IMG/VR virus record: IMGVR_UViG_3300020437_001482
Span: 1-22,209 of that record
Length of the DNA: 22,209 nt
Direction: 5' to 3' (one strand)
Source of the DNA: a virus
This document shows, piece after piece, positions 1 through 18,564 of the stretch. Under the pieces are notes generated by a model. The model worked only from the letters and a program-made list of their open reading frames with translations, was not told the origin of the DNA and ran no database searches. The position numbers were made by a program, and so were the translations under genes. Numbering within the stretch: position 1 is the stretch's first letter; every line of letters starts with the position of its first letter.

Positions 1-120
1 GAGATTGCATTATATAAAAGATTAGGTTATGATTACTATTATCTGGGAGAATCATCAGATTATAAATCAAAATTACAAGGGTATGAAATTTCTAATTTCT
101 TTGACGAATGGCAAAATTAA
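1..120 (+). CDS. 3' end of an unidentified phage gene (partial)
   Basis: Frame 1 is open from the first base of the window and ends at TAA 118-120, giving a 39-residue C-terminal fragment that runs LYKRLGYDYYYLGES and ends FFDEWQN. The tyrosine-rich YYYLG segment followed by YKSKLQGYE recalls the C-terminal part of GNAT-fold aminoacyl transferases such as arginyl-tRNA-protein transferase, and I recall such a gene in some marine T4-like phages. The fragment is too short to prove this. The following gene starts inside it, overlapping by 13 nt in another frame. That arrangement supports a real coding end, since the same overlap style continues through the next two genes. The function should be treated as unknown. 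Confidence 0.6.
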   Translation, partial: EIALYKRLGYDYYYLGESSDYKSKLQGYEISNFFDEWQN

Positions 121-1328: not shown

Positions 1329-1730
1329 ATGGCGATTCAACGCAAATCAAGAGCATTTAAGGATATCAGTCTGTCTTTTTCACCACATCCAGTGACAAAA
1401 GACCTTCCTGTGCTTACAAATGAACGTGCAATCGTCAGATCAGTGAGAAATTTAGTGGAGACAATACCAACTGAGAGGTTTTTTAATTCTTTGATTGGTA
1501 CAGACATTCGTGATTCATTGTTTGAGAACTTTACTGCAACCACTCCTACTATAATTGAAGACCAAGTTCGGAATACAATTAGAAATTTTGAGCCAAGAGT
1601 CGGAGAAATAGGTATAGAGGTAGATGCATTGCCAGATAGTAACCGATTAGAGGTTAAAGTGCTATTTGATATTATCGGATTAGAAGTTCCCACTCAATCT
1701 TTTACTTTTATTTTAGAACCAACGAGATAA
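1329..1730 (+). CDS. 25: baseplate wedge subunit gp25 (GPW/gp25 family)
   Basis: The 133-residue protein has almost the same length as T4 gp25 (132). It has the family pattern: an N-terminal segment FKDISLSFSPHPVTKDLPVL, then NERAIVRSVRNLVETIPTER (about residues 31-50), a core with LFENF, the NFEPRVGEI stretch containing the EPR motif typical of gp25/GPW proteins (about 87-95), and beta strands to the end. In T4, gp25 sits in the inner wedge with gp6 and gp53 and provides the handshake fold from which the contractile sheath starts to polymerise. It is the first gene after the upstream late promoter. The start has only a weak purine-rich sequence before it. gp6 follows after 1 nt, so the two are probably translationally coupled. 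Confidence 0.93.
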   Translation: MAIQRKSRAFKDISLSFSPHPVTKDLPVLTNERAIVRSVRNLVETIPTERFFNSLIGTDIRDSLFENFTATTPTIIEDQVRNTIRNFEPRVGEIGIEVDALPDSNRLEVKVLFDIIGLEVPTQSFTFILEPTR

Positions 1731-1731
1731 T

Positions 1732-3678
1732 ATGCCCTTTACTCAATTTACTAATCTAGACTTTGAAGAAATCAAAGTACAAATCAAAGATTTTTTACGA
1801 TCAAACTCAAATTTCACAGATTTTGACTTTGAGGGTTCTAACTTTTCTGTTCTTATTGATACCCTAGCGTATAACACATATATTAATGCCTTTAATGCTA
1901 ATTTACTTGCAAATGAATCATTTTTAGACTCTGCAACCATTCGTGAAAATGTTGTCTCTCTTGCAAGAAATATTGGTTATGTACCACGCTCTAGAACCGC
2001 TGCAACAGCGACTATTCGCATAGCTGATATAAACTTAGGACCAACCTCTAATGCAACTCCTAAGTTCATAGTGATACGTTCTGGACTAATTTGTATTGGT
2101 AATTCAGAGAACACAACATATCGTTTTTCAATACCTGATAATATCACCTCTTCCCGTATTGTTGATATTGGAGGTAATTCTTTTGCCCAATTTGATGGAG
2201 ATATTACAATTTATGAGGGAACATACTTATCAAGAACATATCTAGTTGATACAAGTGTTGATCAAAGGTATATTATTGATAGTCCAAATATTGACAGCTC
2301 AACTTTAAGGGTTTATGTATCAGCATTAAATGATAGTAGTATTGGAAGAAAGTATTCGCAGGTTGATAATATACTTAACTTAAATAAAAACTCAGAAATC
2401 TATCTTGCACAAGAGGTACAAGATGAAAAATATGAAATTTTGTTTGGTGACGGACTTTTTGGTAAAAAACTTGAAAACAATCAAACAATCACTGCAACAT
2501 ACATTGTAACTGATGGTAAAGATGGAAACGGTCCTTCTAATTTCAGTTTCCAAGGTACATTTAATAAAGATGATGGAACATTTTTTGTTCCTTCTGATAA
2601 TGTATCGATAACTACTATTACAAACGCCTCTAATGGTGCTGAAGTTGAGAATGTGTCTTCTATTAAGTATTTTGCACCAAGACTTTACTCAGCACAATAT
2701 AGAGCAGTTACACCAAGAGATTATGAGGCAATAATTGAATCAATTTTTCCTCAAACTGAGTCAGTATCTGTCATAGGTGGAGAAGAATTGACACCACCTC
2801 AATTTGGAAAAGTTCAGATAAGCATAAAACCAAAAAATGGTACTTTTGTATCAGATTTTGACAAACAACAAATTAAAAATAAACTAAAATCTTATGCGGT
2901 AGCAGGTATCAATTCAGAAATTGTTGATCTTAAGATTTTATATGTAGAAGTTGACTCAAACATTTACTATAACCCTTCACAAGTTGCATCAGCTCAAAAT
3001 TTGAGAACTCTAATAATCTCTGGATTGGATGAATATGCACAAAACGTCGAAATCAACAAATTTGGTGGTAGATTTAAATATAGTAAAATTAATCAACTCA
3101 TTGATCGTATTGATGATGGAATTACATCCAATATTACAAAAGTAATTATTCGTAGAGATTTAAATGCTCTAATTAATACTTTTGCTCAGTATGAACTTTG
3201 TTTTGGTAATAGATTCCATATTAATCCTGCAGGTTATAACATAAAGAGCACTGGATTTACAATAGCAGGTACAACAACCACTTCTTACTTTACTGATATT
3301 CCAAATAAAGACGCTGCTGGTAATCTTGACGGTAGTATGAAGGGTACAATTAGTATTGTTACAAAAAATAATAAAGATCAAGAAGTCGTTTTAGTAAAAG
3401 AAGCAGGTGGTGTTGATTATATGAAGGGTGAGGTAGTATTGAATACAATAAACATAACCTCAACACAAGCAGAGAACAACATTATTGAGGTTCAAGCTTT
3501 TCCAGAGTCTTTTGATGTTGTAGGACTCAAGGATTTATTTGTCAGTTTTGACGTTTCTAATAGCTCCATAAATATGGTTAAAGACGTAATTGCATCAGGA
3601 GAAGATGTTTCAGGTGTTGTATTCACAAGAGATTACTATACCTCTAGTTACTCAAATGGAGTTTTAGAGAGGAAATAA
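1732..3678 (+). CDS. 6: baseplate wedge subunit gp6
   Basis: The 648-residue protein (T4 gp6 has 660) has the gp6/baseplate-J-like layout. The N-terminal part aligns by eye with T4 gp6: FEEIKVQIKDFL, then DFDFEGSNFSVLIDTLAYNT (about residues 39-58), then a helix ending NIGYVPRSRTAA. The central AVTPRDYEAIIES and VQISIKPKNGTF blocks (about 325-370) match the T4 region ATDYDTFVSERF...IAAKPKSG. The C-terminus VVFTRDYYTSSYSNGVLERK matches the position of T4 DVIFTRDGSLIVFEND. In T4, gp6 dimers join neighbouring wedges into the inner ring and form the core bundle with gp7, and gp25 and gp53 bind to it. The start lies 1 nt after the gp25 stop, with GAGA just upstream. The giant gp7-position gene follows 3 nt after its stop. 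Confidence 0.92.
   Translation: MPFTQFTNLDFEEIKVQIKDFLRSNSNFTDFDFEGSNFSVLIDTLAYNTYINAFNANLLANESFLDSATIRENVVSLARNIGYVPRSRTAATATIRIADINLGPTSNATPKFIVIRSGLICIGNSENTTYRFSIPDNITSSRIVDIGGNSFAQFDGDITIYEGTYLSRTYLVDTSVDQRYIIDSPNIDSSTLRVYVSALNDSSIGRKYSQVDNILNLNKNSEIYLAQEVQDEKYEILFGDGLFGKKLENNQTITATYIVTDGKDGNGPSNFSFQGTFNKDDGTFFVPSDNVSITTITNASNGAEVENVSSIKYFAPRLYSAQYRAVTPRDYEAIIESIFPQTESVSVIGGEELTPPQFGKVQISIKPKNGTFVSDFDKQQIKNKLKSYAVAGINSEIVDLKILYVEVDSNIYYNPSQVASAQNLRTLIISGLDEYAQNVEINKFGGRFKYSKINQLIDRIDDGITSNITKVIIRRDLNALINTFAQYELCFGNRFHINPAGYNIKSTGFTIAGTTTTSYFTDIPNKDAAGNLDGSMKGTISIVTKNNKDQEVVLVKEAGGVDYMKGEVVLNTINITSTQAENNIIEVQAFPESFDVVGLKDLFVSFDVSNSSINMVKDVIASGEDVSGVVFTRDYYTSSYSNGVLERK
3666..3675 (+). promoter_or_regulatory. 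strong ribosome binding site for the giant gene
   Basis: AGAGAGGAAA, lying within the last codons of gp6, contains GAGG about 10 nt before ATG 3682. It is the clearest Shine-Dalgarno in the window; the other late-gene starts here have weak or no such sequence. It supports ATG 3682 as the start. Confidence 0.65.
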
Positions 3679-3681
3679 TTT

Positions 3682-6600
3682 ATGTCACAAATTGACAGAA
3701 GAATAAAAGTCAATACTATAATCGAAAATCAATTACCAGAGTTTATACTCTCTGATTTTCCTAATGCTGTTGAATTTTTTAAACAATATTATATCTCTCA
3801 AGAATTTCAAGGAGGTCCTAGTGATTTAATTGGTAATTTCGATCAATATCTTAAGGTAGATAATCTTGTTCCAGAGGTTATTGTAGGAACCACAGTTATT
3901 ACATCAGATGTTAATACATCAGATACTACAATTTCAGTTACCAGCACTAAGGGATTTCCAGACGAATATGGTTTATTAAAGATTGGAAATGAAATTATTA
4001 CATATACTGAAATAACACCAACTTCATTTATAGGGTGTGTTCGTGGTTTTAGTGGTATTACAGGATATAATGTTGGAATATCATCTTCTTTGCTTGATGT
4101 AAATAAAGAAACTTTGACATTTGAGGATACTAATGCTCAAGAACATGTATCTGGAAGCACTGTAACTAATCTATCCGTTTTATTTTTACAAGAATTTTAT
4201 AGAAAAATAAAGAAAACTTTTTTACCAGGTTTAGAAGATACTACATTAGCATCTAATTTAGATGTAGGTAACTTTGTTAAGTTTGCACGTTCGTTCTATC
4301 AATCAAAAGGTATTCAAGAATCAATATCAATATTATTTAAAGTTCTATATGGAGTTACATCTACAGTAGTTGATTTAGAAGGAAGATTAATAAAACCATC
4401 GGATGCAGAATTTATTAGAAGGGAGGTTATAGTTGCAGAATTAATTACCCCAAATGGTACACCAAAAAATCTCATTGGTCAAACAATATTTAAATCAAAT
4501 GATCTCAATACTAATGGTTCTGTATCAGAGGTTGAAGTTTTTACAAGGAAAAATAAGACATATTATAAAATTTCATTATTTGTTGGGTTTAGTGACCGTG
4601 ATTTAATAAAAGGTATATTTACAGTTACTCCTAACACAAAATCATTAAATGAGGTCTCAATAGGTGGTTCTATCATAAATGTGGATTCGACAGTTGGATT
4701 TGGTGCTACTGGAACATTAATAAGTGGAAATAATATAATAAATTATACTTCTAAATCTATAAATCAATTTTTTGGTTGCACAGGTGTTGAGAGAATTATT
4801 AACACAGCAGATAATATAAGAAAGAATGAGAGTATTTTTGGTTATGAAAATGGTGAACTGTCAAAGAGAATTGATTTAAGAGTCACAGGAGTAATATCAG
4901 AGCTTGAAATTATAGATGAATTAAATCTAGCAAGAGAAGGTGAAAATGTATATGTTAAAAATATAGGTGAAAAAATACTGAATGATGGATTAACATATAA
5001 AGAAAAATTTGCAAATGTATGGAAATATAATACCAGTAGTAGATTTAGAGTTGAAATAGTTGGATCAACTATTTCATTAAAAACTGATATTGATAAAGCA
5101 TCGTTGAAGATAGGAGATAAATTTCAGGTATTACGAAGAAATGAACAAACAGTAGAAGATGAATTTATTGTAGCGACTATAGATACTCAACTTAATCAAA
5201 TTACAACTACTGGATTATCATTTGCTCCAAATCCAAACGAAGATTATGATATTCGTAGAGTAATGGAGAAAGCGACTAGTTCAGGAGTTAACATAAAAGA
5301 GGGAAACGAACAATTATTCACTGATGTTTTAAATGTTTACACTGATAATAGTATTGATGGATATGTTGCATCCAATTCATTACCAAGTTACGATATCACA
5401 AGTCATCTCACACAGGAGTCAGCGGTAGGTATTGCTAATACCACAATTGATTTTGGATTAGATACTCAAAATCCATTAAATAATCTTTACTACTTTATTA
5501 ATTTTAATACTAATCGTAATATTAAATTTTTGCAAGGTGATGCAGTCATATACAACGTTGTAAAAGATCCTTTTACTGTTACTACTACTCCAGCTGAAGC
5601 AGCACCAGGATTAGTGGATGGACAATTATATTATGTTGATCCACAACCAGAACCTGCTGGTGCAGACATAACAAGAATCGCTTTACATTTTTCAAGAGCA
5701 CAAATCGGAACAGCAAGCACAATCCAAATAGGTGTGGGTGCCTCTGCATTCGATCAACATAGATTTACTCTACAAAGGCATGCAAATAAACAATTATCAT
5801 CAAATCAGATACTAAGAAAGTTTCCATTAAGTCAAAATTTATTTGTATCAACATCTGATGAGCAGACTATAAATGAGGTTGGTATATTAAAAGATGGAGT
5901 AGAAATTATCTCACCAGTATCCCCAGATACTATATTTTATGGACCCTTACAGGATTTATTAGTATCTAATGGTGGAGAAGGATATGATGTTTTTAATCCA
6001 CCTGTAATAGAGATAGAAGCAGGATTAGGTAAAACAGCACTTGCTGAACCAATATTATCAGGTGAAGTTGAAGCAATATTGGTAGATCCACAGGATTTTG
6101 ATATTGAATCTGTTACTAGTATTTCTTTGACAGGTGGTAATGGTAGTGGGTGTCTTCTTGAACCATCACTTGGAGACAGATTCCGTGAAATTAAATTTGA
6201 TAGTCGTGATTTATTTTTTGGTGGTGGAATTGATAAAACTAATGAAACAATAACTTTTACTGAAGCACATAATTTAGAGAATGGTCAAATTGTATATTAT
6301 AGAAATAATGGTAATACATCATTAGGTATAGGTGCTGCTTATGATGCAAATAATATTATTACTGGAACTCTTTCAGATGGTGATCCTTATTTTGTTAAAA
6401 TTGTAAATCCAACAACTGTACAAATATTTAATAATAAGAGTGATGCATTGTCTGGAATTAATACTGTTGGATTATCAACAGACACTGCTGCAGCAGGTAT
6501 TCATTTATTCAGAACTGAATCAAAAAATACTATATTTGGTATAAATGTTATAGATTCAGGCTCTGGTTATCAATATCGAAAATTAAGAGTTAATCCATCA

Positions 6601-9600
6601 GGTATTTCAACATCTTATAATACAATAAATTATGCTAATCATGGTTTTGCACATGGTGATATTATAAATTATTCACCAACTATTGGTGCAGGTACAACTA
6701 CTCCAGTTTCAATACAAGGTTTGACTACCACTTCATCATATTATGTGATGAAAATAGATGACGATACATTTAAGTTAGCGGATGCAGGTATTGGAGCAAC
6801 AGATACAAGTAATTTTGATAGAGGCAAAGTAGTAAGTTTTGGTTCAACTGGAACTGGTTATCAAACATTTACATATCCAGAAATTAAAGTTAATATTGAG
6901 GTTTCATATGGATCGACTGTTACTGGTACATTTAATTTCACTCCTATCATATCTGGAACAATAACAGGTACATATTTGTATGAACAGGGAACTGATTATG
7001 GTTCTACAGTAATAAATCATGTTAATAAACCCTCTGTAAATATACGAACTGGAACGGGTGCAGAATTAAGACCTGTAATCGCTAATGGTAAAGTTGAGGA
7101 CGTTATAGTCGTCAATCAAGGTTCTAATTATGTTTCGCAACCATTAATTAAAGTAAATTCTCTTGATGGATTGGGTAGTGGTGCTGTGGTAAGATCAGTA
7201 ATTGAAAATGGTAAAATTACAGACGCTGTTGTAATAAATTCAGGTATAGGATATAGTACTCTTACAACAGAGGCAGTAGTTGAAGCAAGAGGAAAAAATG
7301 CTAAATTTGAGCCTGTTTTAAGAAGTTTAACTCTTAATGATGAAAACAGATTTGGCAGTCAGCATTTAGTAGGTAGAGATGATAAAGTTACTTTTGGAAT
7401 ACTAGGATATTCACAAGAATTAGCAACTGAATTTGAATCAGAATCTTTTACAGAAAAAGGTAATGGTGAATTTAATGAAGTGATAGGACACTCACCAATT
7501 ATTGGTTGGGCTTATGATGGTAATCCGATTTACGGACCTTTTGGTTACACCAAATCAGATGATATAAACTCTGGTTTTTCTACAATGCGTTCATCATATA
7601 AAAAGGATATATCTAAAGTAGAGAATAGACCATCAGGATTTGATGCAGGATTCTTTAATAACGATTATATATTTGATAATTCAGGTGATTTAGATATTCA
7701 TAATGGTCGTTTCTGTAAAACTCCCGAATTTCCAAATGGAATTTATGCATACTTTGCCACCACTGAGATTAATTCTAATGGTTTCTTAACTGGTTCTTAT
7801 CCATATTTCATAGGTTCTACTTATAGATTACCAATTATAAAAGAAAATTTAGAGTTAACTCACGCTTTTGATTTTAATAATTCTAACTTATCACGAAATA
7901 CATTCCCATATAACTTAGGAGAAGAGGATGCAGAGTATGATTTTATTATTGAATCTAATGAAGAGATAAGACAATCTACTGAAATTTTATCAGTAAGCAA
8001 AGGTGGAGTTGAAGATATACAAATATTAAATGCTGGAACTGGGTACAAAGTTGGTGATGTAACAGATTTTGATAATACAGATACTAATGGAAGTGGTTTC
8101 AGTGCAGAGGTAAGTGAGATATTAGGTATTGGAATATCAAATATTACCACAACTCTCGAAAGATTTGAGAATGTAGTCTTTACATGGAATAGTTCTAAAG
8201 AGATTCAAGGAAGTTGTTTACCATTTTTTGAGTTAAATCCTAATGATTCTTTATCAGTATCAGGATTATCTACAACCATAAGAAATTTAACTGATACTTT
8301 TGTAGTTGGTGTTAAGACTGATACAATAAGTATTGGTAAATCAATGAATTCAGTATCTGCTAATAACAGTGTAATTGAAGATATTTTTGTTAATCAAATA
8401 CCAAATACTGTGTCAGTTGGAGGATCATTAAGAGTAGGTGATGAATTTGTTAAAATATTAAGTGTTTACAATTCACAAAAGGTAATTAGAGTACAGAGAA
8501 ATATTGGTGCTACTGCAGGTGTAGCTCATACTTTTGGTTCTAATGTGGATGTTCTCAACAATAGATTTACAATACCAGTAAGTACAAAACAATTTACATC
8601 AAGATTAAATGATGTTGTATACTTCAATGCACCACAATCTGTTGGTGTTGGTACAAGTGGTGGTGCAACAGATATAACATATTACGTTGGAGAAACAGAA
8701 AAACAAATATCAATATCAAACAGACAAATATATCTCCCAAATCATCCATTTACAACAGGACAAAAAGTTACATTAAACGTTCCACCAGTTGCAAATAAAC
8801 AAATCGATGTTGCCACAGTTGATGACCCTAGTGTTACTGCAGGTAATTTTTCTATACCTTATAGTGGAAATACTATAGATCTGTTTGTTATTAAAAAAAG
8901 TGAAAATTTCATCGGTCTATCTACAGTTGGCATAGGTTCTGATAGTGATGGATTATTCTTTAGATCAAATGCAAGTAATGTTGCTGGAATAAACACACAT
9001 CTATACTACTTTACATCAACTTTTGATCAAGTTACAGGAGATGTTGATAAAGTTACAAGCACAGTATTAACTAATGTATCAGCTGCTGATACAACAACTC
9101 ATGGATTGGAAGAAGGTGATATAGTCGCAATTAATGTAGTACCAAGTTTAGAAGTAGGTATTGGCACTACAGCACCAGTAACAGTCAAATATAATCATCA
9201 ATTTGATAAATTATTAATTAATCCAATATCATTTACAAGTTCTGATGTAGAGGCAAACAGAATAGATATAGCAAATCATGGATTTAAAACTGGAGATAAG
9301 GTATTCCATGATGGTGGTAATGGAACTGGAATAGCAACAGGATTATATTTTGTTAATAGAGTTAATGATAGGTATTTTCAACTTGCAGAAACATTAAAAG
9401 ACTTGAGTGTTGATCCAGTAAGAGTAATATCAATAAATCCAAATACAGGTGGTAATCAAACAATTGCTCCTGTTAACCCTAGAATAACTGTTGTTAAAAA
9501 TTCTAAATTAGCGTTTGGATTAACAGATACCTCATTAGTAGATTTTGACTTTAAGATTTATTATGATAAGAATTTAACAAATGAATATTCAAGTTCACAA

Positions 9601-12600
9601 GATTCAAGTAATTTTAATGTTATTGGAGTAGGGACAGTTGGTATAGGATCTACATCTGATGATTCTAAATTAATAGTTTCACATACATCATCATCACCAT
9701 CAACACTTTATTACGGATTATCAAAAGGAGGATTTATAAGCACATCTGATACTGATGTTGTAAATTATTCTGAAATTACTTTCATCGATAGTATTTACAA
9801 TGGTGAATATGAAATATCTGGTGTCACTTCTGAAAGATTTAACTTTTCACCTAAACTTCCAGAGTTTCTTAATTATCAACCGTCAGACTGTGAAAAATTA
9901 GAGTATTCAACAAAATCTCGTAATACTCACGGTGGTATTAAAAACTTTAAGATTTTATCATCTGGATTTAATTATAAAAAATTACCAACATTTAAGTCAG
10001 TTAAATCTACTTTAGGTCAAAATGCGAATATTAATCTACAATCAAAACAAATTGCAAAAATAAAAGACGTTAGAATAATAGATTATGGTTATGAATATTC
10101 AGCAGATAAAACTTTAAGACCTGAAGCACTTATACCCTCAATTGTTAATATTGATAATCTTGATGTTGTTGAAACTGTTAATATAATAGACGGTGGTTCT
10201 GATTTAACAAGTGCACCAAACTTATTATTATTCAATCCTGAAACGAATGTTGTAGTAGATAATTCAACATTAAATCCAATATTCCAAAATCAGACAATTA
10301 GTAATGTAGAAGTAATTGCACCAATAAATGGATTAGATTCAACACAGCACCGTATTATTTCAATCAATAACTCAAATGGAGTTGGAATTAACTCAATCGA
10401 AACAAGTCCTTCAGGAATAGTAACATGTTTCTTAGAAACACCGTTTAATGGATTCCCTAATCCTCAACCATTTGCAGTTGGTGATGAAGTTTATGTTGAA
10501 GGTATCCAGAGAGTTGGTGAAAGTGGAATAGGAACTAGCGGTGTAGGAGTAAGCACTGCAATAACAGGTGATGGTTTTAATTCTGAAGATTATAATTATA
10601 GTTTCTTCCCCGTTGTTTCATATACACCAGGCACTACAGCAGAACTTGAGTTTAGTATAGCTGGTTTGACAACTAATCCTGGTATTGCAAAGACATTCCA
10701 ATCTGGTTTTGCATCAATTATTAATAAAAAAATATATCCAAATATTATTCCTGTCCAAACAAGAGGGCAGTTTGCAAGAAATGAGTCTGTTCTAATAAAT
10801 GGAGAAAAGAGCGATTTAATAGTAGTTGAAATCAGAGATGATTATATTAAATTAGATGGAGTTTCTAAATTCAGCATAGGTGATAGAATTACTGGATTAT
10901 TGTCAGGAGTATCAGCACAAATTACTAGCGTTGTTAAGAATATTGCTAAATTTAATATTGATTATGCAAATCGTCAGGAATATGGTTGGATAGATGGTAT
11001 TGGTAAATTAAATGACGATACGCAAGTAATAGCTGACAATGACTACTATCAGAATTTATCATACACAGTAAAGAGTCCAATAACTTGGGATAAATTCTCA
11101 AATCCATTAAATCGACTTGTTCATCCTGCAGGACTTAAGAATTTTGCAGATACTAGCATACAAACAAATGTTAAAGCTGGAATCGATACTTTATCTAATG
11201 AATCAATATCAACTCTTATTTTAGACTTTACTGAACAAACTAGAGTTGACGCTGTAAATAATTTTGATTTTGGTGATGATTATGATATTGTTAATCAAAA
11301 ATCGAAAAATATTTTACTAAGTAATAGGAAGTTAACTGATTTTACAAGATGTTTAACAAACAGAGTATTAATACATGATGATATTAGTTCTAAATTTTCA
11401 AGTGTAAGTTTTTCAGAGGACTCTTCAATTATTGATGAATTATTAACTGATTTTGCAACTTATTTAATACAAATTATTGATCCTGATACTTTTGATACTC
11501 AGATAAGTGAAGTTATTGTGATGAAAACTCAAACTGATAATTTCCTTATTGAAAAATCCACTGATTCTGCAGGAGTTGGTCTTAATAATCAAAATACTAA
11601 TTTAAAGTTAGGTGAAATAAAAACAGAAACAACAACAGCTGGAGATAATAATCTTATATTTGTGCCTGTTGATGCTTTTGACAAAGATCATGATATCAAG
11701 GTATTAAAAACTTTCTTTAACACTGATGTTCTTTCTACAGGTTCTAAAACAATAGGTAGTGTCAAATTAACTGGAGCTAATGTTGGTGTTGGAAGCACAA
11801 CAGTTGGATTTACAACAACTTCAGTTGCAGAATTTTCTAAGAATGATTTTAATGGACTATTTGCAAAAGTATTTGTACAAGATTCTATCACTAAAGAAAT
11901 AAATTATAACGAAGTATTGATTGATTTTGATGGTAGCACAACAGCTGAGTCTAATGTCTTTGTTGACTCAAATACAGGAGCGAATGGAAATGTTGTCGGA
12001 TTAGTAACAGCTAGATTTGAGAATGATTTGATTAAAATACAAGTTCAGAATGATAGAATTAATGATTTAGATGTAAAAGCTCACATAGTTGGTCTAGGCA
12101 CAACCACAGCAGGAAGTGGTGTACATCGTTTCTTGACACTTGATCAACCACCAGGATCTGAAAGAAGTGTGAGATTAGAATCAGAATATAATACAGGAAC
12201 TACAAGTCCTATCACTTATACATCTGTTAATAAAGATAATGATAGTACTATTAAATCAATAGTAAGAGTTTCATGTGGTGACACATCAGCTGTTCATCAA
12301 ATCGTCACTATTCGTGATGCTGATGATGTTATGACAGTTCAGTATCCATTCATTTCTATTGGGTCTACATCAGGTATTGGAACATTTGGTGGAGAAATTA
12401 ACGGTAGTAATATTGATTTAAAGTTCTATCCAGACTCAACTTTCTTATCTCTTGTTGAAGTTCAAGCATTTAATGAAATATTCTATACAGCTACTGATTT
12501 TGATAATACACCAAATGAATTAAATTATGGAAGTGTTCAGCAAGAGGTATTTGTTACAACCTTTGATGGAAGAAATGGAAATAGAGCAAATAAAACTAAA

Positions 12601-15600
12601 TTTGACTTAAAGTATCAGGGAGTTCCAATATACACTAAAACATTTAATCCAGACGGAGTAGGACTTGAAAAATCGACTGGTATATTTACAATTAATAATC
12701 ACTTCTTTAACACTAACGAGGAGATAACATACCAAGAATCCTCCACATTTGTTGGTGTTGCTGCTACACCAGTATCAATAGGTTCAACTATTAATTTTGC
12801 TGGTATTAATACTACTCTTCTTCCTACAACAGTATTTGTGAAGAATATAGACGAAAATAGATTCCAACTATTCCCAACTAGAGAAGATATAACATCAGGA
12901 ACAGCAATTACATTCACAGGTAGTGGATCTGGTAACGCTCACAAGTTAAGCATGACTCAAGCGTTGACAAAAACAATAATTGGTTTAGATGGAGTAACTC
13001 AACAACCCATATCATTTACATCAATAGCACATACTTTGAGTGGTAATATTGGAGCAGCTACTTCACAGTTTGCATTGAGTGGCATAGGTTCGATATTTAC
13101 AACAGACGTGTTGAAGATTGATGATGAATACATGAAGATTGAACAAGTAGGATTTACAAGCACAGCTGATGGTTCTGGATTAATTGATAATACATTAAAT
13201 GTATCTCTTGGAATTTCTACCATTCCTTCAGTTAGAGTTGAGAGAGGAGTGCTTGGTATACCAGCAGCATCACACTCAAACGGTGCGACAGTAAGAGTTC
13301 ACAGAGGATCATTTAATATTGTTGATAGTTCAGCGTACTTTATAGAACCTCCAAAAGGTAATACTAGAGAAAGAAAAACACCAACAGAGTTACCTTTCGT
13401 AAAAGCAGACTTTAGTGGTAGAACTTTCTTGAGACAAGATTACACAACCAATATGATATTTGATGATATATCAGATAACTTTACAGGTATTGGTAAAACA
13501 TATTCTCTTACAGTTGGTGGTGCAAATACATCTGCAGGTATTCAGGTAGGAAATGGTGTATTGTTTATCAACGGAGTTTTCCAAACACCATTTACAAGTA
13601 ATAATGCAGGACACAATTATAAAATTACTGCTGATACTGTAGCAGGTTTATCTACAGTTAATTTCACTGGTATTACATCTGAAAATGGTCAACTTATAGT
13701 TTCAGAATCAGATATCAATCAAAACCAAGTTCCAAGAGGTGGTCTAATAGTATCATTAGGTTCTACACCAGGTTTAGGATATGCTCCTTTAGTAGGTGCA
13801 AGAGTTCATCCATTTACAAACTCAAGTGGAGCAATCACAAGTCTTGCTGGCATAGGCACAACATCAGGAGTGAATATTGGTATTGAAACTGCTGTTTATG
13901 ATAACGTAAGTGGTATTATTACAGTTACAACAGAAAAAGTTCACGGATTCTCACTTGGAAGACCTAATTCTGTTCATCTAAAAGATTTAGAATTTGTATG
14001 TCCTAAGACAGTTGTTGGACAACCTACTAATGCAACCTATGATGGTGTAACTGGTATATCGACAATCACAATCGCAAATCATGGATTAGTGAATGGTGAT
14101 GCTGTTATTCTTGATACAGGTTCAATATGTTTTAGATGTAGTAAAGATAGTTTTGCAACAGTTCATTGTTATCCTCGTGCTACTGACCCTGCAGCGGGAC
14201 AATACTTAACAGTTAGTAACGTAACTACAAATACTTTCCGAGTCAATGTGGGTGCTTCCAATCCAGGTGATGTTTACGTTCACCAATTTGAATCAGCGAC
14301 TGCGACTGCAGTTAAAACAATTGGTGGTGGTGGATACGTTGGTGTTACTACAACAATCTTCCAAGATCATGAAAGACCTCTATTTGTTGTCGGTATTGTT
14401 TCTGAGAGAACATTTGAGGTAAAAGCAGGAACAAGTACAATTCCTCACACTTATCAGGGTGGTGGTAATGCTATTGAGTTCTTTGATGATTTGACATTTG
14501 GTTCAGGTTATCGTGGCACAACAGTTGCAATCGGTGTCACTGATATTAATTTCTTACATGAATTTGTAAGTTCAAGCACAAACTCAATTGCAGTTCAAGG
14601 TGGCTCCGCTGGTCCATTTACTCCTACAGACGCAATATATGAGTCACATACAGGTCAACTAACTCTTATAATTCCTGGTCATGGATTAACCACAAGTAAT
14701 AAAGTTAGAATTGCAACTAATTCTCTTTTATTCAAGTGTAGTAAAGATGGTAACTTTAGTAATCATCCTTATCCTCGTGCTACTGACCCTGCAGCAGGTG
14801 TATTCCTAAGTATTACTGCTGTGACTACAGACTCCATTACAGTCAATGTAGGTGCTGGTGGTGGCGGTGGAACAGGAGCAAATATTACCGCTACAGTTGG
14901 TGTTGGCGGAACTTTAATTTTCAATATCGCTGCTGCTGGTAGTGGGTATATTAATCCTCAAATTGATATTCCTGAACCATCATATGAAAATCTTGAAGTA
15001 GTAGGTATATCAAGAATAGGTATTGGTACTACAACAGATACTGGATCAAACCTACTACTCAACGTATCTGTTAGTGGCACATCAACAGTAACTGGTATAG
15101 GATCAACCTATTTTGAGATTAATAAATTTGAAATAGCTAGAAGTGGACATTCATTTAAGAAGGGTGATAAATTTAAACCTGTTGGATTAGTTACTGCTTT
15201 AGGTTTATCACAACCTATTCAAGAATTTGAGTTAGAAGTATTAGAAGTATTCAATGACAAATTCTCTGCATGGCAATTTGGTGAATTAGATTATATTGAT
15301 AGTATCAAAATACTTCAGGATGGCGAAAGAAGAAGATTCCCATTATTCTTTAATGGAGAATTATTAAGTTTCGAGAAAGATTTGACTGATACACAATCTC
15401 AATTAATTGATTTAAATGCAGTATTATTAATCTTTGTTAATGGTGTATTACAGAAACCTAACGTATCATATCAGTTTGAGGGTGGTTCTACATTTACATT
15501 CCTTGAGGCTCCTCGTGGTGAATCACAACCTGGATTAAATGATAATGATGATGTAGACATATTCTTCTATAAAGGCACTCAAGGTGTAGATACAATTGTT

Positions 15601-16938
15601 GAAGATATTCAACCAACTGTAAAAATAGGTGATACTCTTAAGATTGAAAAAAATTCTATTGTTGCAGGTATGCCTATTGTTCATACAAATCGTGAAAAGG
15701 AACAAACTAGAGCAAGAGTTGTTAAAGACATATTAAATACTGATTTGGTTGAAACTGATATCTATTCTGGAATTGGTATTGTAACCACTGGTGGTGCTTT
15801 AAGACCAATAACATGGACAAAACAAAAGCGTGACTTAAGAATTAATGGAGCATTGATTGATAAATCAAGGTCAATTTTAGAACCACAAGTATATGCAACA
15901 TCAAAAATTATAGGTGATTTATCTACTACTGATGGTAAAGGTGGTCCTAGTGATGGTATTTTTGTAGACAATGCAGAATCATTCTTTAAGGAAAATAATT
16001 ATTCTGGAATTACTGTAACAGAGGTAGATGCTCTAATCACATCAGGAGAATTTAATGTTGGTGCTGCTGCAACTGCAACCGTATCTGCTGCTGGAACAAT
16101 ATCATCACTAACAATTACAGAACCAGGTAGTGGTTATTCGGGCACAGTGGAAGTTAAATTAAGTGCTCCTTCTGAAATTGGTGTAGGAATAGGGACAACT
16201 GCCACAGCAACTGTCACTGTAAGTAATGGTGTGATTGGAAGTCCTTTAATAGTAAATCCAGGTTTAGGTTATACACATTCTAATCCACCTGGCGTAATTA
16301 TTGAGGAACCTGAATTTAAAACTGAGAAAATTACAAGAATATCAAACGCACAAGGTTACACTGGTATTATCACTGGAATATCACAAGTAAACAGAGGTGG
16401 TGTTGCTGGTGGAGCACTTAAATTCTTCTTCCATGCTGTTGAAGAAAATGCAGACGGTGATTTAATAAATGCAACTGCATCTGAATTACTTGCTGGTTAT
16501 CCAATCCTCGTAAAAGACACAAAAGTTGGTAACGGTGTAACATCAGTAAATCCTGGCAACTCTAACGTAGTAAGTATAGGAACTACATTTGTTGATAATA
16601 TTTACATTGTTAATTCTATAACAACTGATGGAGCAAAGGGAATTTGCACCTGTCATGTTCACAGTAATAGTGTTTCATCTATTGCAGGAATAGTGACAAC
16701 TGGTTCATTTACCAGTGTCAATGCACTTGGTCAGGCAAATATATTAGGAACTATCAGTTGGGGTGTTCTATATGGTGCTAATCTTGTTCGCTCATCAAGT
16801 CCAATCTCAATAGGAGTTACAGGACTAACAGTTAATACTGGTTTGACTACTTTCCCAACTATTCAACGTAAAAGTTACGATAAAATAGGTGAGAGGGGTC
16901 ATCGATCATCTGGTTCATATAGGGCTGAATTAGCATGA
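3682..16938 (+). CDS. giant gp7-position baseplate structural protein (4418 aa)
   Basis: One frame runs unbroken for 4418 codons in the place where T4 has gene 7, between gp6 and gp8. Residues about 195-315 resemble the C-terminal part of T4 gp7: FYQSKGIQESISILFKVLYG (205-224) against T4 FYSTKGIEASYKFLFKVLYN, and LIGQTIF (264-270) against LVGQTIY. Residues 2454-2488, with DYYQNLSYTVKS and W-x(8)-RLVHPAG, resemble the next T4 gp7 block (RFVHPVG). About 2,100 residues lie between these segments and about 1,900 follow. The roughly 700-residue N-terminal part of T4 gp7 has no visible counterpart. The added sequence is modular: many G-x-GY repeats, HGF/HGL repeats, four 'IGxExIxY...RG' modules, a YHYH-type domain (about 1267-1382), a pair of Cys/PRATDPAAG repeats 200 residues apart (near 3467 and 3667) and NGVLQ modules (about 3295 and 3914). 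It ends TFPTIQRKSYDKIGERG, a tail I recall from other marine phage structural proteins. There is no signal peptide or membrane segment. Likely role: wedge body plus outer baseplate or adhesive decoration. The gp7 link is inferred from remembered T4 sequence. Confidence 0.88.
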   Translation: MSQIDRRIKVNTIIENQLPEFILSDFPNAVEFFKQYYISQEFQGGPSDLIGNFDQYLKVDNLVPEVIVGTTVITSDVNTSDTTISVTSTKGFPDEYGLLKIGNEIITYTEITPTSFIGCVRGFSGITGYNVGISSSLLDVNKETLTFEDTNAQEHVSGSTVTNLSVLFLQEFYRKIKKTFLPGLEDTTLASNLDVGNFVKFARSFYQSKGIQESISILFKVLYGVTSTVVDLEGRLIKPSDAEFIRREVIVAELITPNGTPKNLIGQTIFKSNDLNTNGSVSEVEVFTRKNKTYYKISLFVGFSDRDLIKGIFTVTPNTKSLNEVSIGGSIINVDSTVGFGATGTLISGNNIINYTSKSINQFFGCTGVERIINTADNIRKNESIFGYENGELSKRIDLRVTGVISELEIIDELNLAREGENVYVKNIGEKILNDGLTYKEKFANVWKYNTSSRFRVEIVGSTISLKTDIDKASLKIGDKFQVLRRNEQTVEDEFIVATIDTQLNQITTTGLSFAPNPNEDYDIRRVMEKATSSGVNIKEGNEQLFTDVLNVYTDNSIDGYVASNSLPSYDITSHLTQESAVGIANTTIDFGLDTQNPLNNLYYFINFNTNRNIKFLQGDAVIYNVVKDPFTVTTTPAEAAPGLVDGQLYYVDPQPEPAGADITRIALHFSRAQIGTASTIQIGVGASAFDQHRFTLQRHANKQLSSNQILRKFPLSQNLFVSTSDEQTINEVGILKDGVEIISPVSPDTIFYGPLQDLLVSNGGEGYDVFNPPVIEIEAGLGKTALAEPILSGEVEAILVDPQDFDIESVTSISLTGGNGSGCLLEPSLGDRFREIKFDSRDLFFGGGIDKTNETITFTEAHNLENGQIVYYRNNGNTSLGIGAAYDANNIITGTLSDGDPYFVKIVNPTTVQIFNNKSDALSGINTVGLSTDTAAAGIHLFRTESKNTIFGINVIDSGSGYQYRKLRVNPSGISTSYNTINYANHGFAHGDIINYSPTIGAGTTTPVSIQGLTTTSSYYVMKIDDDTFKLADAGIGATDTSNFDRGKVVSFGSTGTGYQTFTYPEIKVNIEVSYGSTVTGTFNFTPIISGTITGTYLYEQGTDYGSTVINHVNKPSVNIRTGTGAELRPVIANGKVEDVIVVNQGSNYVSQPLIKVNSLDGLGSGAVVRSVIENGKITDAVVINSGIGYSTLTTEAVVEARGKNAKFEPVLRSLTLNDENRFGSQHLVGRDDKVTFGILGYSQELATEFESESFTEKGNGEFNEVIGHSPIIGWAYDGNPIYGPFGYTKSDDINSGFSTMRSSYKKDISKVENRPSGFDAGFFNNDYIFDNSGDLDIHNGRFCKTPEFPNGIYAYFATTEINSNGFLTGSYPYFIGSTYRLPIIKENLELTHAFDFNNSNLSRNTFPYNLGEEDAEYDFIIESNEEIRQSTEILSVSKGGVEDIQILNAGTGYKVGDVTDFDNTDTNGSGFSAEVSEILGIGISNITTTLERFENVVFTWNSSKEIQGSCLPFFELNPNDSLSVSGLSTTIRNLTDTFVVGVKTDTISIGKSMNSVSANNSVIEDIFVNQIPNTVSVGGSLRVGDEFVKILSVYNSQKVIRVQRNIGATAGVAHTFGSNVDVLNNRFTIPVSTKQFTSRLNDVVYFNAPQSVGVGTSGGATDITYYVGETEKQISISNRQIYLPNHPFTTGQKVTLNVPPVANKQIDVATVDDPSVTAGNFSIPYSGNTIDLFVIKKSENFIGLSTVGIGSDSDGLFFRSNASNVAGINTHLYYFTSTFDQVTGDVDKVTSTVLTNVSAADTTTHGLEEGDIVAINVVPSLEVGIGTTAPVTVKYNHQFDKLLINPISFTSSDVEANRIDIANHGFKTGDKVFHDGGNGTGIATGLYFVNRVNDRYFQLAETLKDLSVDPVRVISINPNTGGNQTIAPVNPRITVVKNSKLAFGLTDTSLVDFDFKIYYDKNLTNEYSSSQDSSNFNVIGVGTVGIGSTSDDSKLIVSHTSSSPSTLYYGLSKGGFISTSDTDVVNYSEITFIDSIYNGEYEISGVTSERFNFSPKLPEFLNYQPSDCEKLEYSTKSRNTHGGIKNFKILSSGFNYKKLPTFKSVKSTLGQNANINLQSKQIAKIKDVRIIDYGYEYSADKTLRPEALIPSIVNIDNLDVVETVNIIDGGSDLTSAPNLLLFNPETNVVVDNSTLNPIFQNQTISNVEVIAPINGLDSTQHRIISINNSNGVGINSIETSPSGIVTCFLETPFNGFPNPQPFAVGDEVYVEGIQRVGESGIGTSGVGVSTAITGDGFNSEDYNYSFFPVVSYTPGTTAELEFSIAGLTTNPGIAKTFQSGFASIINKKIYPNIIPVQTRGQFARNESVLINGEKSDLIVVEIRDDYIKLDGVSKFSIGDRITGLLSGVSAQITSVVKNIAKFNIDYANRQEYGWIDGIGKLNDDTQVIADNDYYQNLSYTVKSPITWDKFSNPLNRLVHPAGLKNFADTSIQTNVKAGIDTLSNESISTLILDFTEQTRVDAVNNFDFGDDYDIVNQKSKNILLSNRKLTDFTRCLTNRVLIHDDISSKFSSVSFSEDSSIIDELLTDFATYLIQIIDPDTFDTQISEVIVMKTQTDNFLIEKSTDSAGVGLNNQNTNLKLGEIKTETTTAGDNNLIFVPVDAFDKDHDIKVLKTFFNTDVLSTGSKTIGSVKLTGANVGVGSTTVGFTTTSVAEFSKNDFNGLFAKVFVQDSITKEINYNEVLIDFDGSTTAESNVFVDSNTGANGNVVGLVTARFENDLIKIQVQNDRINDLDVKAHIVGLGTTTAGSGVHRFLTLDQPPGSERSVRLESEYNTGTTSPITYTSVNKDNDSTIKSIVRVSCGDTSAVHQIVTIRDADDVMTVQYPFISIGSTSGIGTFGGEINGSNIDLKFYPDSTFLSLVEVQAFNEIFYTATDFDNTPNELNYGSVQQEVFVTTFDGRNGNRANKTKFDLKYQGVPIYTKTFNPDGVGLEKSTGIFTINNHFFNTNEEITYQESSTFVGVAATPVSIGSTINFAGINTTLLPTTVFVKNIDENRFQLFPTREDITSGTAITFTGSGSGNAHKLSMTQALTKTIIGLDGVTQQPISFTSIAHTLSGNIGAATSQFALSGIGSIFTTDVLKIDDEYMKIEQVGFTSTADGSGLIDNTLNVSLGISTIPSVRVERGVLGIPAASHSNGATVRVHRGSFNIVDSSAYFIEPPKGNTRERKTPTELPFVKADFSGRTFLRQDYTTNMIFDDISDNFTGIGKTYSLTVGGANTSAGIQVGNGVLFINGVFQTPFTSNNAGHNYKITADTVAGLSTVNFTGITSENGQLIVSESDINQNQVPRGGLIVSLGSTPGLGYAPLVGARVHPFTNSSGAITSLAGIGTTSGVNIGIETAVYDNVSGIITVTTEKVHGFSLGRPNSVHLKDLEFVCPKTVVGQPTNATYDGVTGISTITIANHGLVNGDAVILDTGSICFRCSKDSFATVHCYPRATDPAAGQYLTVSNVTTNTFRVNVGASNPGDVYVHQFESATATAVKTIGGGGYVGVTTTIFQDHERPLFVVGIVSERTFEVKAGTSTIPHTYQGGGNAIEFFDDLTFGSGYRGTTVAIGVTDINFLHEFVSSSTNSIAVQGGSAGPFTPTDAIYESHTGQLTLIIPGHGLTTSNKVRIATNSLLFKCSKDGNFSNHPYPRATDPAAGVFLSITAVTTDSITVNVGAGGGGGTGANITATVGVGGTLIFNIAAAGSGYINPQIDIPEPSYENLEVVGISRIGIGTTTDTGSNLLLNVSVSGTSTVTGIGSTYFEINKFEIARSGHSFKKGDKFKPVGLVTALGLSQPIQEFELEVLEVFNDKFSAWQFGELDYIDSIKILQDGERRRFPLFFNGELLSFEKDLTDTQSQLIDLNAVLLIFVNGVLQKPNVSYQFEGGSTFTFLEAPRGESQPGLNDNDDVDIFFYKGTQGVDTIVEDIQPTVKIGDTLKIEKNSIVAGMPIVHTNREKEQTRARVVKDILNTDLVETDIYSGIGIVTTGGALRPITWTKQKRDLRINGALIDKSRSILEPQVYATSKIIGDLSTTDGKGGPSDGIFVDNAESFFKENNYSGITVTEVDALITSGEFNVGAAATATVSAAGTISSLTITEPGSGYSGTVEVKLSAPSEIGVGIGTTATATVTVSNGVIGSPLIVNPGLGYTHSNPPGVIIEEPEFKTEKITRISNAQGYTGIITGISQVNRGGVAGGALKFFFHAVEENADGDLINATASELLAGYPILVKDTKVGNGVTSVNPGNSNVVSIGTTFVDNIYIVNSITTDGAKGICTCHVHSNSVSSIAGIVTTGSFTSVNALGQANILGTISWGVLYGANLVRSSSPISIGVTGLTVNTGLTTFPTIQRKSYDKIGERGHRSSGSYRAELA
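7474..7830 (+). other. YHYH-family domain inside the giant protein
   Basis: Residues about 1267-1382 carry the YHYH domain landmarks in order: HSPIIGWAYDGNPIYGPFGY (1270-1289), DIHNGRFCKTPEFPNG (1338-1353), IYAYFATT (1354-1361) and YPYFIGS (1373-1379). The family is named for a YHYH motif, which here reads YAYF, so both histidines (positions 1356 and 1358) are gone. The domain occurs in some bacterial secreted proteins and, as I recall, in marine phage structural proteins. Its function in phages is not known to me. Confidence 0.85.
14026..14270 (+). repeat. Cys/PRATDPAAG module, copy 1
   Basis: About 80 residues starting near PTNATYDGVTG run through ITIANHGLVNGDAV and FRCSKDSFATVHCYPRATDP to VTTNTFRVNVGA. 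Copy 2 lies exactly 600 nt downstream in the same frame, and the spacing holds at both the HGL and the PRATDPAAG landmarks, so the pair aligns without gaps. A 27-nt stretch (14169-14195) is identical to 14769-14795. This copy has cysteines in SICFRC and HCYPR. Confidence 0.85.
14626..14870 (+). repeat. Cys/PRATDPAAG module, copy 2
   Basis: This is the second copy of the module, starting near PTDAIYESHTG. It runs through LIIPGHGLTTSNKV and FKCSKDGNFSNHPYPRATDP to VTTDSITVNVGAGGGGG. It keeps the CSKD cysteine but lacks the first cysteine of SICFRC and has HPYPR where copy 1 has HCYPR. It ends in a glycine-rich stretch and then a G-x-GY repeat (AAAGSGY). The 27-nt identity with copy 1 covers the codons for PRATDPAA. 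Confidence 0.85.
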
Positions 16939-16977: not shown

Positions 16978-18564
16978 ATGTCAGCAATTGTCACTGATCA
17001 ATTTAGAATATTAAATGCAAATAATTTTGTAGAATCAGTAGAAGATACAAATAATTCATATTATATCTTTATTGGATTGCCAAATCCAGATGGAACTAAC
17101 ACGCTTGTAGGTTTTGGTAGAACAACAGATTGGGATACAAATACACCAGCCCCAACTGATAATTTTGCATACAGGAAGCATACAACTGATACTATGATGT
17201 TTGGAAGGAAAATATCATCTGCAAATATTAGAAGAGTTGTGAGAAGGATAGATTGGGTTTCTGGAAACAAGTATGAAATTTATAGAGATGATTATAGTGC
17301 ACAAAATCCAAGTCCCAATACTAAAGCAAATTCTTTATATGATGCCAATTATTATGTTTTAAATTCTGACTTTAAAGTTTATGTTTGTATTGATAATGGA
17401 TCATCAGGAGATAATCCTACTGGTAACGTATCTCAAGATGAACCTACTTTCACTGACTTAGAACCATCTAAAGCAGGTAGTAGTGGAGATGGATATGTGT
17501 GGAAATACTTATTTACTATTTCACCTAGCGATATTGTAAAATTTGATTCAACAGAATTCATAACTGTACCAAATAGTTGGTCTACATCAACAGATAGTCA
17601 AATCAGAAATGTTAGAGAGAATGGAGATTCTAATACTAATCTGAATCAAATTAAACACATTTATATTGAAAATTCGGGAGTTGGTTACAAAAATGGAACT
17701 GGTCAAGAGGTAGACATAATTGGTGACGGAATTGGTGCTAAAGCAAGAGTTGACGTTACTGGTGGTAAAATAACTAATGTAAGCGTTAGTTCTGGTGGAA
17801 AAGGTTATACTTATGCATTAGTTGATTTGGGCAATATAAGAACAACAGCGGTTTCGACCAATGCAAAACTAGTTCCAATCATACCTCCAAGTTTAGGACA
17901 TGGGTATGACATCTATACAGAATTAGGAACCGATAAGGTAATATGTTATGCAAGATTTGATGACACAACAAAGGATTTTCCAACTGATACTACATTTTCT
18001 CAAATTGGTATCGTAAAAAATCCAACAAAACCAGACTCAACAGACATTTTTACTGCTGATAGTTACTCTTCCTTACAGGCAGTTAAGTTTTCATCGGTCA
18101 CTGGAACTCCCAAGGTTGGTGAAGTAATTCAACAAGTTTTAACAGTGGCTCCAAATAATGGAAAAATTGCAAGAGGTTATATTGCATCGTTTGACGAAGA
18201 AACAAAAGTATTAAAGTATTTTAGAGATAGATCCCTTAATTTTAATACAACAGAGTTAGATCATACTGATTATGTTGGAATAAGCACTGATGGTAGAATA
18301 TTCCAATTTGAAAGTTCTGTTAATGGAAGTGTTATAAAAGGGGATGAATCTGGATTTACAGGCTCTGTTGAAACAGGATTTACTGGTGTCTCAACTATAA
18401 CATCAGGCAATAAATTAGTTAATTTAGGAACGAACTTCAACGCAGGATTATCTCAATCTGAGATAAATAAAGGGTCGGGTGAAGTTATCTACTTAGATAA
18501 TAGACCTGAAATAACTAGAAGCACTCGACAAAAAGAGGATATTAAAATCATACTCGAATTCTAA
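16978..18564 (+). CDS. 8: baseplate wedge subunit gp8
   Basis: The 528-residue protein matches T4 gp8 (334 aa) at both ends and in the middle. The N-terminus AIVTDQFR corresponds to T4 AIVTSKFR, then FGRTTDWDTN to FGRSEPWSSN, SGDGYVWKYLFTISPSD (about residues 163-179) to PGDGYVWEYLFEIPPDV, and the C-terminal GEVIYLDNRPEITRS...EDIKIILEF to GEMIYMENRPPIIMA...EEINILFTF. The extra length includes an inserted block at about 225-290 made of two G-x-GY repeats (ending Y237 and Y277) like those in the giant protein upstream. In T4, gp8 dimers bind gp7 and gp10 in the wedge. The gene has its own late promoter. Its ribosome binding site is weak. The next gene starts 2 nt after its stop. Confidence 0.92.
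   Translation: MSAIVTDQFRILNANNFVESVEDTNNSYYIFIGLPNPDGTNTLVGFGRTTDWDTNTPAPTDNFAYRKHTTDTMMFGRKISSANIRRVVRRIDWVSGNKYEIYRDDYSAQNPSPNTKANSLYDANYYVLNSDFKVYVCIDNGSSGDNPTGNVSQDEPTFTDLEPSKAGSSGDGYVWKYLFTISPSDIVKFDSTEFITVPNSWSTSTDSQIRNVRENGDSNTNLNQIKHIYIENSGVGYKNGTGQEVDIIGDGIGAKARVDVTGGKITNVSVSSGGKGYTYALVDLGNIRTTAVSTNAKLVPIIPPSLGHGYDIYTELGTDKVICYARFDDTTKDFPTDTTFSQIGIVKNPTKPDSTDIFTADSYSSLQAVKFSSVTGTPKVGEVIQQVLTVAPNNGKIARGYIASFDEETKVLKYFRDRSLNFNTTELDHTDYVGISTDGRIFQFESSVNGSVIKGDESGFTGSVETGFTGVSTITSGNKLVNLGTNFNAGLSQSEINKGSGEVIYLDNRPEITRSTRQKEDIKIILEF

Follow-up and report, generated by a model that had tools for sequence, protein, structure and literature searches.

Each of the six wedges in the tail of phage T4 contains one copy of the baseplate wedge protein gp7, which is described as working with gp10, gp8 and gp6 (PMC3004832). 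Its orthologue in phage XM1 (gp17) is 242 residues long and is reported to hold tail spikes with a loop (residues 80–106) and its C-terminus (residues 201–242) (PMC10457771). TssG of the type VI secretion system (T6SS) is reported to have two loops, each anchoring a TssK trimer (PMC6300606). For marine relatives of T4, a 2020 paper describes cyano- and pelagimyophages as lacking gp7, with VrlC apparently as its substitute (PMC7029224), Sullivan et al. (2010) listed gp7 in the non-cyanophage core (PMC3037559), and cyanomyoviruses were reported without g10, g11 and g12 in a list that does not name g7 (PMC2984593). The subject here is a single open reading frame (ORF) of 4418 amino acids (aa) in the IMG/VR virus record IMGVR_UViG_3300020437_001482, analysed over its positions 1–22,209 (22,209 nucleotides; the window). 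No description of a split or inserted gp7 in cyanophages was found in the open-licence papers searched.

Profile comparisons confirmed, at the level of sequence, that the 4418-aa ORF encodes the gp7-type wedge protein of a marine T4-like phage and that about 2,100 residues split its core. Alignment showed three core pieces to share ancestry with the gp7s of other T4-like phages and, via these, with about residues 640–890 of T4 gp7. The ORF and the core pieces predicted within it were as follows:

3682..16938, + strand: gp7-type baseplate wedge protein, 4418 aa; a single ORF, matched by PHROG 2885 (‘baseplate wedge subunit’) over residues 3–4397.
3715..3816, + strand: core helix 1 (residues 12–45), the first gp7 core piece; profile A, residues 12–58, independent E-value (iE) 6.5e-7.
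4189..4635, + strand: core block A and the start of domain V (residues 170–318); profile A, residues 170–285, iE 7.8e-16.
11002..11151, + strand: core block B (residues 2441–2490); profile B, residues 2446–2489, E 3.7e-15.

An initial annotation had proposed a gp7 core parted by an insertion, with one block at residues 205–270 and the other at 2454–2484, and both were found exactly there. Block A of the window protein carries FYQSKGIQESISILFKVLYG from residue 205 and LIGQTIF up to residue 270, and block B carries DYYQNLSYTVKS at 2454–2465, W at 2469 and RLVHPAG at 2478–2484. The T4 gp7 counterparts are GIEASYKFLFKVLY at 739 (739–752), LVGQTIY at 781–787 and the SYYVMKIKSNLPSSRWKSDVIRFVHPVG stretch at about 848–887. 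The link between the blocks in T4, which the initial annotation had put at some tens of residues, measured 40. The end of the core before the insert, near residue 318, was set by eye from the gp7 alignment; the inserted stretch therefore comes to about 2,120 residues (319–2440).

Profiles A and B were built from 12 gp7s including T4, with the window protein and the giant marine forms described below left out. Profile A matched the window protein at E 5e-21 (residues 12–58 and 170–285) and profile B at E 3.7e-15, so the two halves of the proposed split core each answered to non-giant gp7s. Chance level, taken as the best of 200 shuffled windows, was about 3e-3 for both profiles, and the best wrong reading frame of the window reached 2e-3 (profile A) and 5e-4 (profile B). 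When T4 was left out of the profiles, T4 scored 34.2 bits with profile A (best shuffle 10.3) and 10.2 bits with profile B (best shuffle 7.0), above all of 1000 shuffles (500 of T4 and 500 of the window). Because the second margin is narrow, the T4 link of block B is thin when taken alone, and leans on the place of block B after block A and on the wider family.

On the block A side, hhalign joined nine short gp7s to T4 gp7 (96.6%, E 5.7e-10) and to window residues 169–270 (97.2%, E 2.8e-11); six giants reached the block A region of T4 gp7 at 64.8% (E 6.2e-5), a weaker link than that of the short gp7s. A nine-row block B set reached T4 gp7 at 53.1% (E 1.4e-4). Sequence searches of the PDB spanned all of its sequences (177,635 distinct). 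There a window-led alignment (A5) found T4 and KP1 gp7 at 9.4e-4, with the next match at 0.26; a block B profile (A3) ranked T4 and KP1 gp7 first (E 0.021 and 0.045); and an alignment of short marine gp7s (A4) found KP1 gp7 at 1e-10 and T4 gp7 at 1e-6. A phmmer search with the whole 4418-aa protein gave a single PDB match, a pilin at E 1.8, and the link to gp7 is thus invisible without profiles. The Pfam family PF23786 matched below its cut-off, with its A half in the window protein (173–214 of 284) and its B half in S-PM2 (236–281) and S-CREM2 (228–280).

Conservation was measured as residue identity to the window protein across 34 relatives. It was 0.91 in helix 1 (residues 10–45), 0.79 in block A, 0.71 at the start of domain V and 0.79 in block B, compared with 0.62 in both the large insert and the C-terminal array. 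Blocks A and B were thus equally conserved, and above the sequence that parts them. In block B, Y2455, Y2456, Q2457, S2460, Y2461, W2469, H2481, P2482 and G2484 were identical in 34/34 relatives.

The reading frame is uninterrupted, and the ORF directly follows gp6 and precedes gp8 in the order gp25-gp6-ORF-gp8, the same placing as gene 7 of T4 between genes 6 and 8. The neighbouring genes predicted in the window were:

1329..1730, + strand: gp25-type wedge subunit; PF04965, E 5.9e-11.
1732..3678, + strand: gp6; PHROG 219, E 8.4e-192, and PF21379, E 1.6e-16.
16978..18564, + strand: gp8; PF09215, E 1.6e-14, and PHROG 438.
18567..22208, + strand: VrlC-type structural protein, running off the window end; assigned by likeness to an S-PM2 gene and a BUCT608 homologue.

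The VrlC-type gene shared 39% identity (E 1e-70) with the start of an S-PM2 gene labelled Virulence Associated protein, and its BUCT608 homologue matched at E 2e-51. At the other end of the window, the first ORF (108–764) was matched by PHROG 3704, labelled ferredoxin, and had no Pfam match; it is overlapped by an ORF at 712–1200 that matches PHROG 10325, of unknown function. Megablast of the window returned just short scraps from five cyanophage records, and 448 IMG/VR stretches encode relatives of the N-terminus of the 4418-aa protein.

Shorter gp7s bridge the window protein and T4. Two segments of the window protein, used as tblastn queries, found 462 and 455 phage records; among the matches listed for the second segment were Stenotrophomonas, Methylophilales, Caulobacter, Pseudomonas and Ochrobactrum phages besides cyanophages. 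Short gp7s were chosen as the proteins following gp6 where the record was annotated. They measured 482–607 aa in ACP17, BUCT608, pf16, RHph_I1_18, SRB7757 (unannotated) and BUCT-ZZ01, and 767–1288 aa in Cr30, Melnitz, phiM9, ORM_20, phiM12 and DLP6, so that gp7 ranges from about 500 to 1300 residues in many relatives. Eleven short gp7s aligned with T4 over one common core in the order: first helix, helical stretch to block A, beta stretch with a LIGQT-like strand, variable stretch, block B. In short marine gp7s (represented by L101), the stretch after domain V (A4 positions 206–304) resembles about residues 82–174 of the T4-type tail sheath (best E 2e-5).

The distance between the blocks was followed in 420 loci, from named phages and IMG/VR contigs, scanned with profiles A and B. 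Block A occurred in exactly one ORF per locus, a presence that holds by construction since gp7 sequences served as queries in collecting the loci. Block B was found in 216 loci; it is independent for the 46 giants, which were fetched by N-terminal matches, but not where full-length Melnitz or BUCT-ZZ01 gp7 was the query. Block A preceded block B in all 214 ORFs that held both. The remaining 206 A-containing ORFs comprised 204 that run off the available DNA and two (L023 and L378) broken in frame between the blocks, with block B in the next ORF; L023 belongs to the giant group. The A–B gap was 40 residues in T4, 59–777 in 167 other ORFs and 1543–2769 in 46 giants, namely 40 IMG/VR contigs and six isolate genomes with a gap of more than 1,500 residues inside one ORF. 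The 40 IMG/VR giants, which lie near the window, had gaps of 2126–2211. No gap of 800–1500 residues occurred among the 214 ORFs; the absence of intermediate lengths between 777 and 1543 may be genuine or may reflect sampling.

A maximum likelihood (ML) tree was built from 77 of 213 cores after near-duplicates (>85% identity) were dropped and at least 100 columns were required; S-B68 (101 columns) and S-CREM2 (100) were kept despite thin coverage, and L345 and L124, in which helix 1 was not located, were left out. The 15 giants in the tree formed one clade (ultrafast bootstrap, UFBoot, 86), joined by the Melnitz type (UFBoot 77). Neither value reaches the customary 95, and T4 was set as the root by choice. 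The gp7 of Methylophilales phage Melnitz (896 aa) was the nearest short form in this tree. The short form, with a gap of 140, also occurs in BUCT-ZZ01, which infects Synechococcus elongatus and comes from a lake; a cyanobacterial host as such therefore does not entail the giant form.

With T4 gp7 (Straboviridae, phrog_964) the window protein shares its place between gp6 and gp8 and the succession helix 1, block A, start of domain V, block B; the two are also linked by profile matches and by local matches in fold. They differ at the N-terminus, where T4 carries about 640 residues that the window protein lacks, in the link between the blocks (about 40 residues in T4, about 2,120 in the window protein) and in the stretch of about 1,930 residues that follows block B in the window protein. 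The initial annotation had suggested a loss of N-terminal domains in the giant protein, a reading that the comparison did not support in that form. Helix 1, located in 210 of the 214 ORFs, lay at most 60 residues from the first codon in 205. It began more than 100 residues from the ORF start in five, T4 (about 650), phiM9 and ORM_20 (about 277) and two contigs (124), and more than 300 residues in T4 only. Since T4 was the sole named Straboviridae member in the set, the count shows an N-terminus peculiar to the line of T4. With this long N-terminus missing from the other sampled gp7s, a gain in the line of T4 is a simpler reading, though not a proven one, than a loss in the window lineage and all others. 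In Aeromonas phage 65, a 379-aa protein is named Gp7b (BFVD entry E5DRT6); the name suggests a gp7 split over two genes, with the core as a separate chain.

Beyond the initial annotation, the core was found to begin near residue 12, with a smaller insert at about residues 61–165 between helix 1 and block A. The inserted and terminal regions predicted in the window protein were:

3862..4176, + strand: loop 1 insert (residues 61–165), a small beta domain, from the spacing between helix 1 and block A.
4636..11001, + strand: loop 2 insert, about 2,120 residues (319–2440); at this site T4 has 40 residues and 213 other ORFs have 59–2769.
5893..10314, + strand: span with eight GxGY-type and five HGL-type modules in loop 2 (residues 738–2211); own hidden Markov models (HMMs).
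7489..7773, + strand: YHYH domain (residues 1270–1364) inside loop 2; PF14240, E 1.6e-25, above cut-off.
11152..16935, + strand: C-terminal array (residues 2491–4418), about 1,930 residues; from sequence.
12673..16389, + strand: span with three HGL-type and three GxGY-type modules in the C-terminal array (residues 2998–4236); own HMMs.

Loop 1 spacing was 96–108 in the Melnitz type and 97–133 in 43 of the 46 giants, with little or none in other short gp7s; of the remaining giants, P-SSM4 had 616 and two had no value. In a weak model, the loop 1 domain is similar to domains of phage virion proteins (JBD30 baseplate, Chi tail tip, GP4 portal-tail and VP1; Z 9.3–10.9). Melnitz shares the loop 1 insert of about 100 residues; it differs in a loop 2 that spans 342–382 residues in its type and in showing no YHYH match in its gp7. 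Direct relatives of the window protein are the giant gp7s of Bellamy, P-HM1, P-SSM4 and S-PM2 (PHROG 2885, 4406, 701), which share the split core and arrays in loop 2 and at the C-terminus; they differ in a loop 2 of 1543–2769 residues. In P-SSM4 (L006, a 7312-aa frame), 616 residues in loop 1 are added to 2769 in loop 2, which makes three core sites grown in one protein. The second array that the initial annotation had placed at the C-terminus covers residues 2491–4418 of the window protein. S-CREM2 (L009, 11953–17766) and S-B68 (L010, 11953–17700) have a loop 2 of about 1,600 residues and end 19–23 residues past block B; having a giant loop 2 without a C-terminal array, they show the two arrays to be independent.

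The YHYH domain passed the PF14240 gathering score (90.6 bits vs 25) and lay inside loop 2 in each of the four giants scanned (window, Bellamy, S-PM2 and S-CREM2), with an identity of 0.70 among the 34 relatives (0.73 in loop 1). A 2021 survey predicts YHYH as a tail-associated metal-dependent hydrolase whose metal site would be three histidines and one aspartate (PMC7824862). In the window protein H1270, D1336, D1338 and H1340 were identical in at least 95% of the 34 relatives and are candidates for part of such a site. Over the whole protein there were 12 GxGY-type and eight HGL-type modules, counting a further weak GxGY copy in the C-terminal array (residues 2499–2570), and no matches in 21 reversed or shuffled controls. 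The module HMMs were seeded from seven giants with the window protein among them (a first HGL profile of two seeds was replaced), and the copy numbers are therefore descriptive. For a fourth module pattern (VRG), no seeds were found.

Structure models gave a further line of comparison. A Foldseek search with the AlphaFold2 (AF2) model of window residues 1–340 against 350,542 chains ranked T4 gp7 first (3.7e-4) and KP1 gp7 next (8.8e-4), these chains being read as gp7 from their length and from the T4 and KP1 baseplate entries. The model of the short marine gp7 L101 had three gp7 chains as its first matches (6e-6, 7e-5 and 5.6e-3; TM-scores 0.06–0.08). VIA-align placed the same three at ranks 1–3 (Z 8.8–9.0, next 6.2), pairing residues 5–669 of the model with T4 638–895, so that both blocks were taken in and the loop was skipped, at a root-mean-square deviation (rmsd) of about 20 Å. 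The stretch between the blocks in this model was beta-rich and largely confident. On these weak models, local core elements appear to agree with gp7 in order.

Several results weigh against reading the ORF as gp7 with its two blocks in one core. Both AF2 models were weak, with a mean predicted local distance difference test (pLDDT) score of 59.7 (window 1–340) and 61.3 (L101), and the window model, spanning residues 1–340, does not include block B. Its gp7 matches had a TM-score of 0.17 and an rmsd of 26 Å; with TM-scores of 0.06–0.17 and rmsd values of 20–29 Å overall, the gp7 matches reflect separate local elements in the right sequence; a single superposed fold does not emerge from them. 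In VIA-align of the window model gp7 was not among the 50 matches listed, which were filled by matches to the loop 1 domain. At the sequence level, an unrelated PDB chain (0.076) followed close behind gp7 with block B profile A3, and A4 aligned block B in order at i-Evalues of 12 and 370, not significant alone. The Pfam models of T4 gp7 (PF21427, PF21456 and PF21428, for domain V, domain VI and helical parts), which do match T4, had no match in the window protein at E up to 1. Its core starts at residue 12, without the N-terminal domains of about 640 residues that mark the Straboviridae gp7 subtype (phrog_964), and the protein was therefore not filed there.

The best explanation, at a probability of about 0.82, is that the giant ORF is the gp7 wedge protein, with blocks A and B forming one core and the insert and C-terminal array leaving it as arms. 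That gp7 is instead absent, VrlC standing in for it and the ORF being an unrelated structural protein, accords with the statement on cyano- and pelagimyophages in PMC7029224 and with the silence of the Straboviridae domain models; the VrlC-type gene, though, is a separate ORF after gp8 in the window, BUCT608 and S-PM2 each have such a gene plus a gp7-core ORF, and sequence and synteny put gp7 in the 4418-aa ORF. This account is very improbable and was dropped on the separateness of the VrlC-type gene. The chance that two genes were wrongly joined into the long frame during assembly or annotation is negligible: its unusual length was the sole point found in favour, and 40 other IMG/VR contigs and six isolate genomes agree in carrying a gap of more than 1,500 residues inside one ORF, on which gene fusion and assembly error were likewise dropped.

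Two further accounts accept the gp7 origin. Blocks A and B might both derive from gp7 without forming one core, the chain being cut or block B having moved so that the giant acts as two proteins. Contact between A and B in a giant was seen in no model or experiment of this analysis, and proteomics of S-CREM2, which is described as giving peptides per ORF, is still compatible with cutting (PMC10665884). The identity of block B (0.79, vs 0.62 in the insert) and its residues unchanged in 34/34 relatives stand against this; such conservation is as expected if block B still packs on conserved partners, and in the L101 model both blocks appear to map to one contiguous T4 region. A cut or rearranged core is accordingly rated unlikely. 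Alternatively the gp7 identity holds, and the insert and C-terminal array serve as spacers or decoration with no host-contact or enzymatic role. S-CREM2 and S-B68 manage without the C-terminal array, and in short marine gp7s loop 2 opens with a stretch like the T4 tail sheath gp18, a structural protein; on the other hand YHYH is kept inside loop 2 in all four giants scanned, and gp7 loops of the family hold receptor-binding proteins, a precedent by analogy. Purely passive arrays are possible, if well short of an even chance.

Labels in public databases preceded this identification in part, and the gp7 identity of the giants is not wholly new. The initial annotation had expected to name an anonymous ‘structural protein’. 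Among the matches listed, some relatives are indeed labelled ‘structural’ or ‘hypothetical protein’; others already carried gp7, ‘baseplate wedge initiator’ or ‘baseplate wedge subunit’, with a gp7 or wedge initiator label on P-HM1, P-SSM4 (gene name only), Bellamy and others. PHROG 4406, 701 and 19630 (head and packaging) and 3465 (head closure Hc2) gave strong matches to gp7 core proteins of S-PM2, P-SSM4, S-CREM2 and Melnitz; these category labels look wrong, which suggests that the families hold wedge proteins. The separate gp7 gene that would speak against the split core was looked for in six complete cyanophage genomes, the genome of the window phage itself being known as this 22-kb fragment. 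Block A occurred in the giant ORF only and other matches covered loop-region modules, in a search that a second, very diverged gp7 copy could escape. The S-CREM2 homologue (ORF 122) is reported in the virion with 91 unique peptides at 27.2% coverage (PMC10665884).

If the giant is the gp7 wedge protein, blocks A and B would meet on folding to form a single gp7 core. Together with two gp6 chains this core would make up the scaffold of a wedge, and each tail would have six of these, like that of T4. The insert of about 2,120 residues would leave this core as a loop and fold as a chain of small beta modules, and the C-terminal array of about 1,930 residues would be a second arm. Such arms could do peripheral work that other chains do in T4: holding fibres, touching the cell surface and cutting the envelope with YHYH. 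They may supply part of the periphery, given that cyanomyoviruses are reported without g10, g11 and g12. Among 12 genomes, PF08677 (gp11) was found in T4 only. PF07880 (gp9/gp10-type N-domains) was found in T4 and also in P-SSM4 and Melnitz, each of which has it in a single short ORF.

XM1 gp17 and TssG, smaller proteins of the gp7 lineage, are alike in kind, as wedge proteins of a 2:1 complex with gp6-type chains whose loops are reported to carry receptor-binding partners (PMC10457771, PMC6300606). They differ in that XM1 gp17 has 242 residues and that no such arrays are described for either protein in the accounts cited. Because this family carries peripheral parts on loops and on the C-terminus, gp7 of the giants has grown at the sort of site already used for that purpose. 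A bolder proposal is that marine cyanophage gp7 is itself the host-contact periphery, replacing gp10, gp11 and gp12, with six wedges that each have a built-in YHYH hydrolase arm. It would act through an array of 1.5–2.8 thousand residues threaded out of and back into the core, in most giants with a second array at the end; the proposal remains tentative, with the odds against it.

One site in the core of a contractile-tail wedge thus accepts from 40 to 2,769 residues, and one of the largest genes in marine T4-like phages gets a testable identity and a domain map. The giant split core may explain the reports of gp7 missing from marine T4-like phages. Should the insert prove to be a host-contacting arm, the baseplate periphery of these phages would have been built by growing the scaffold protein and not by adding subunits.

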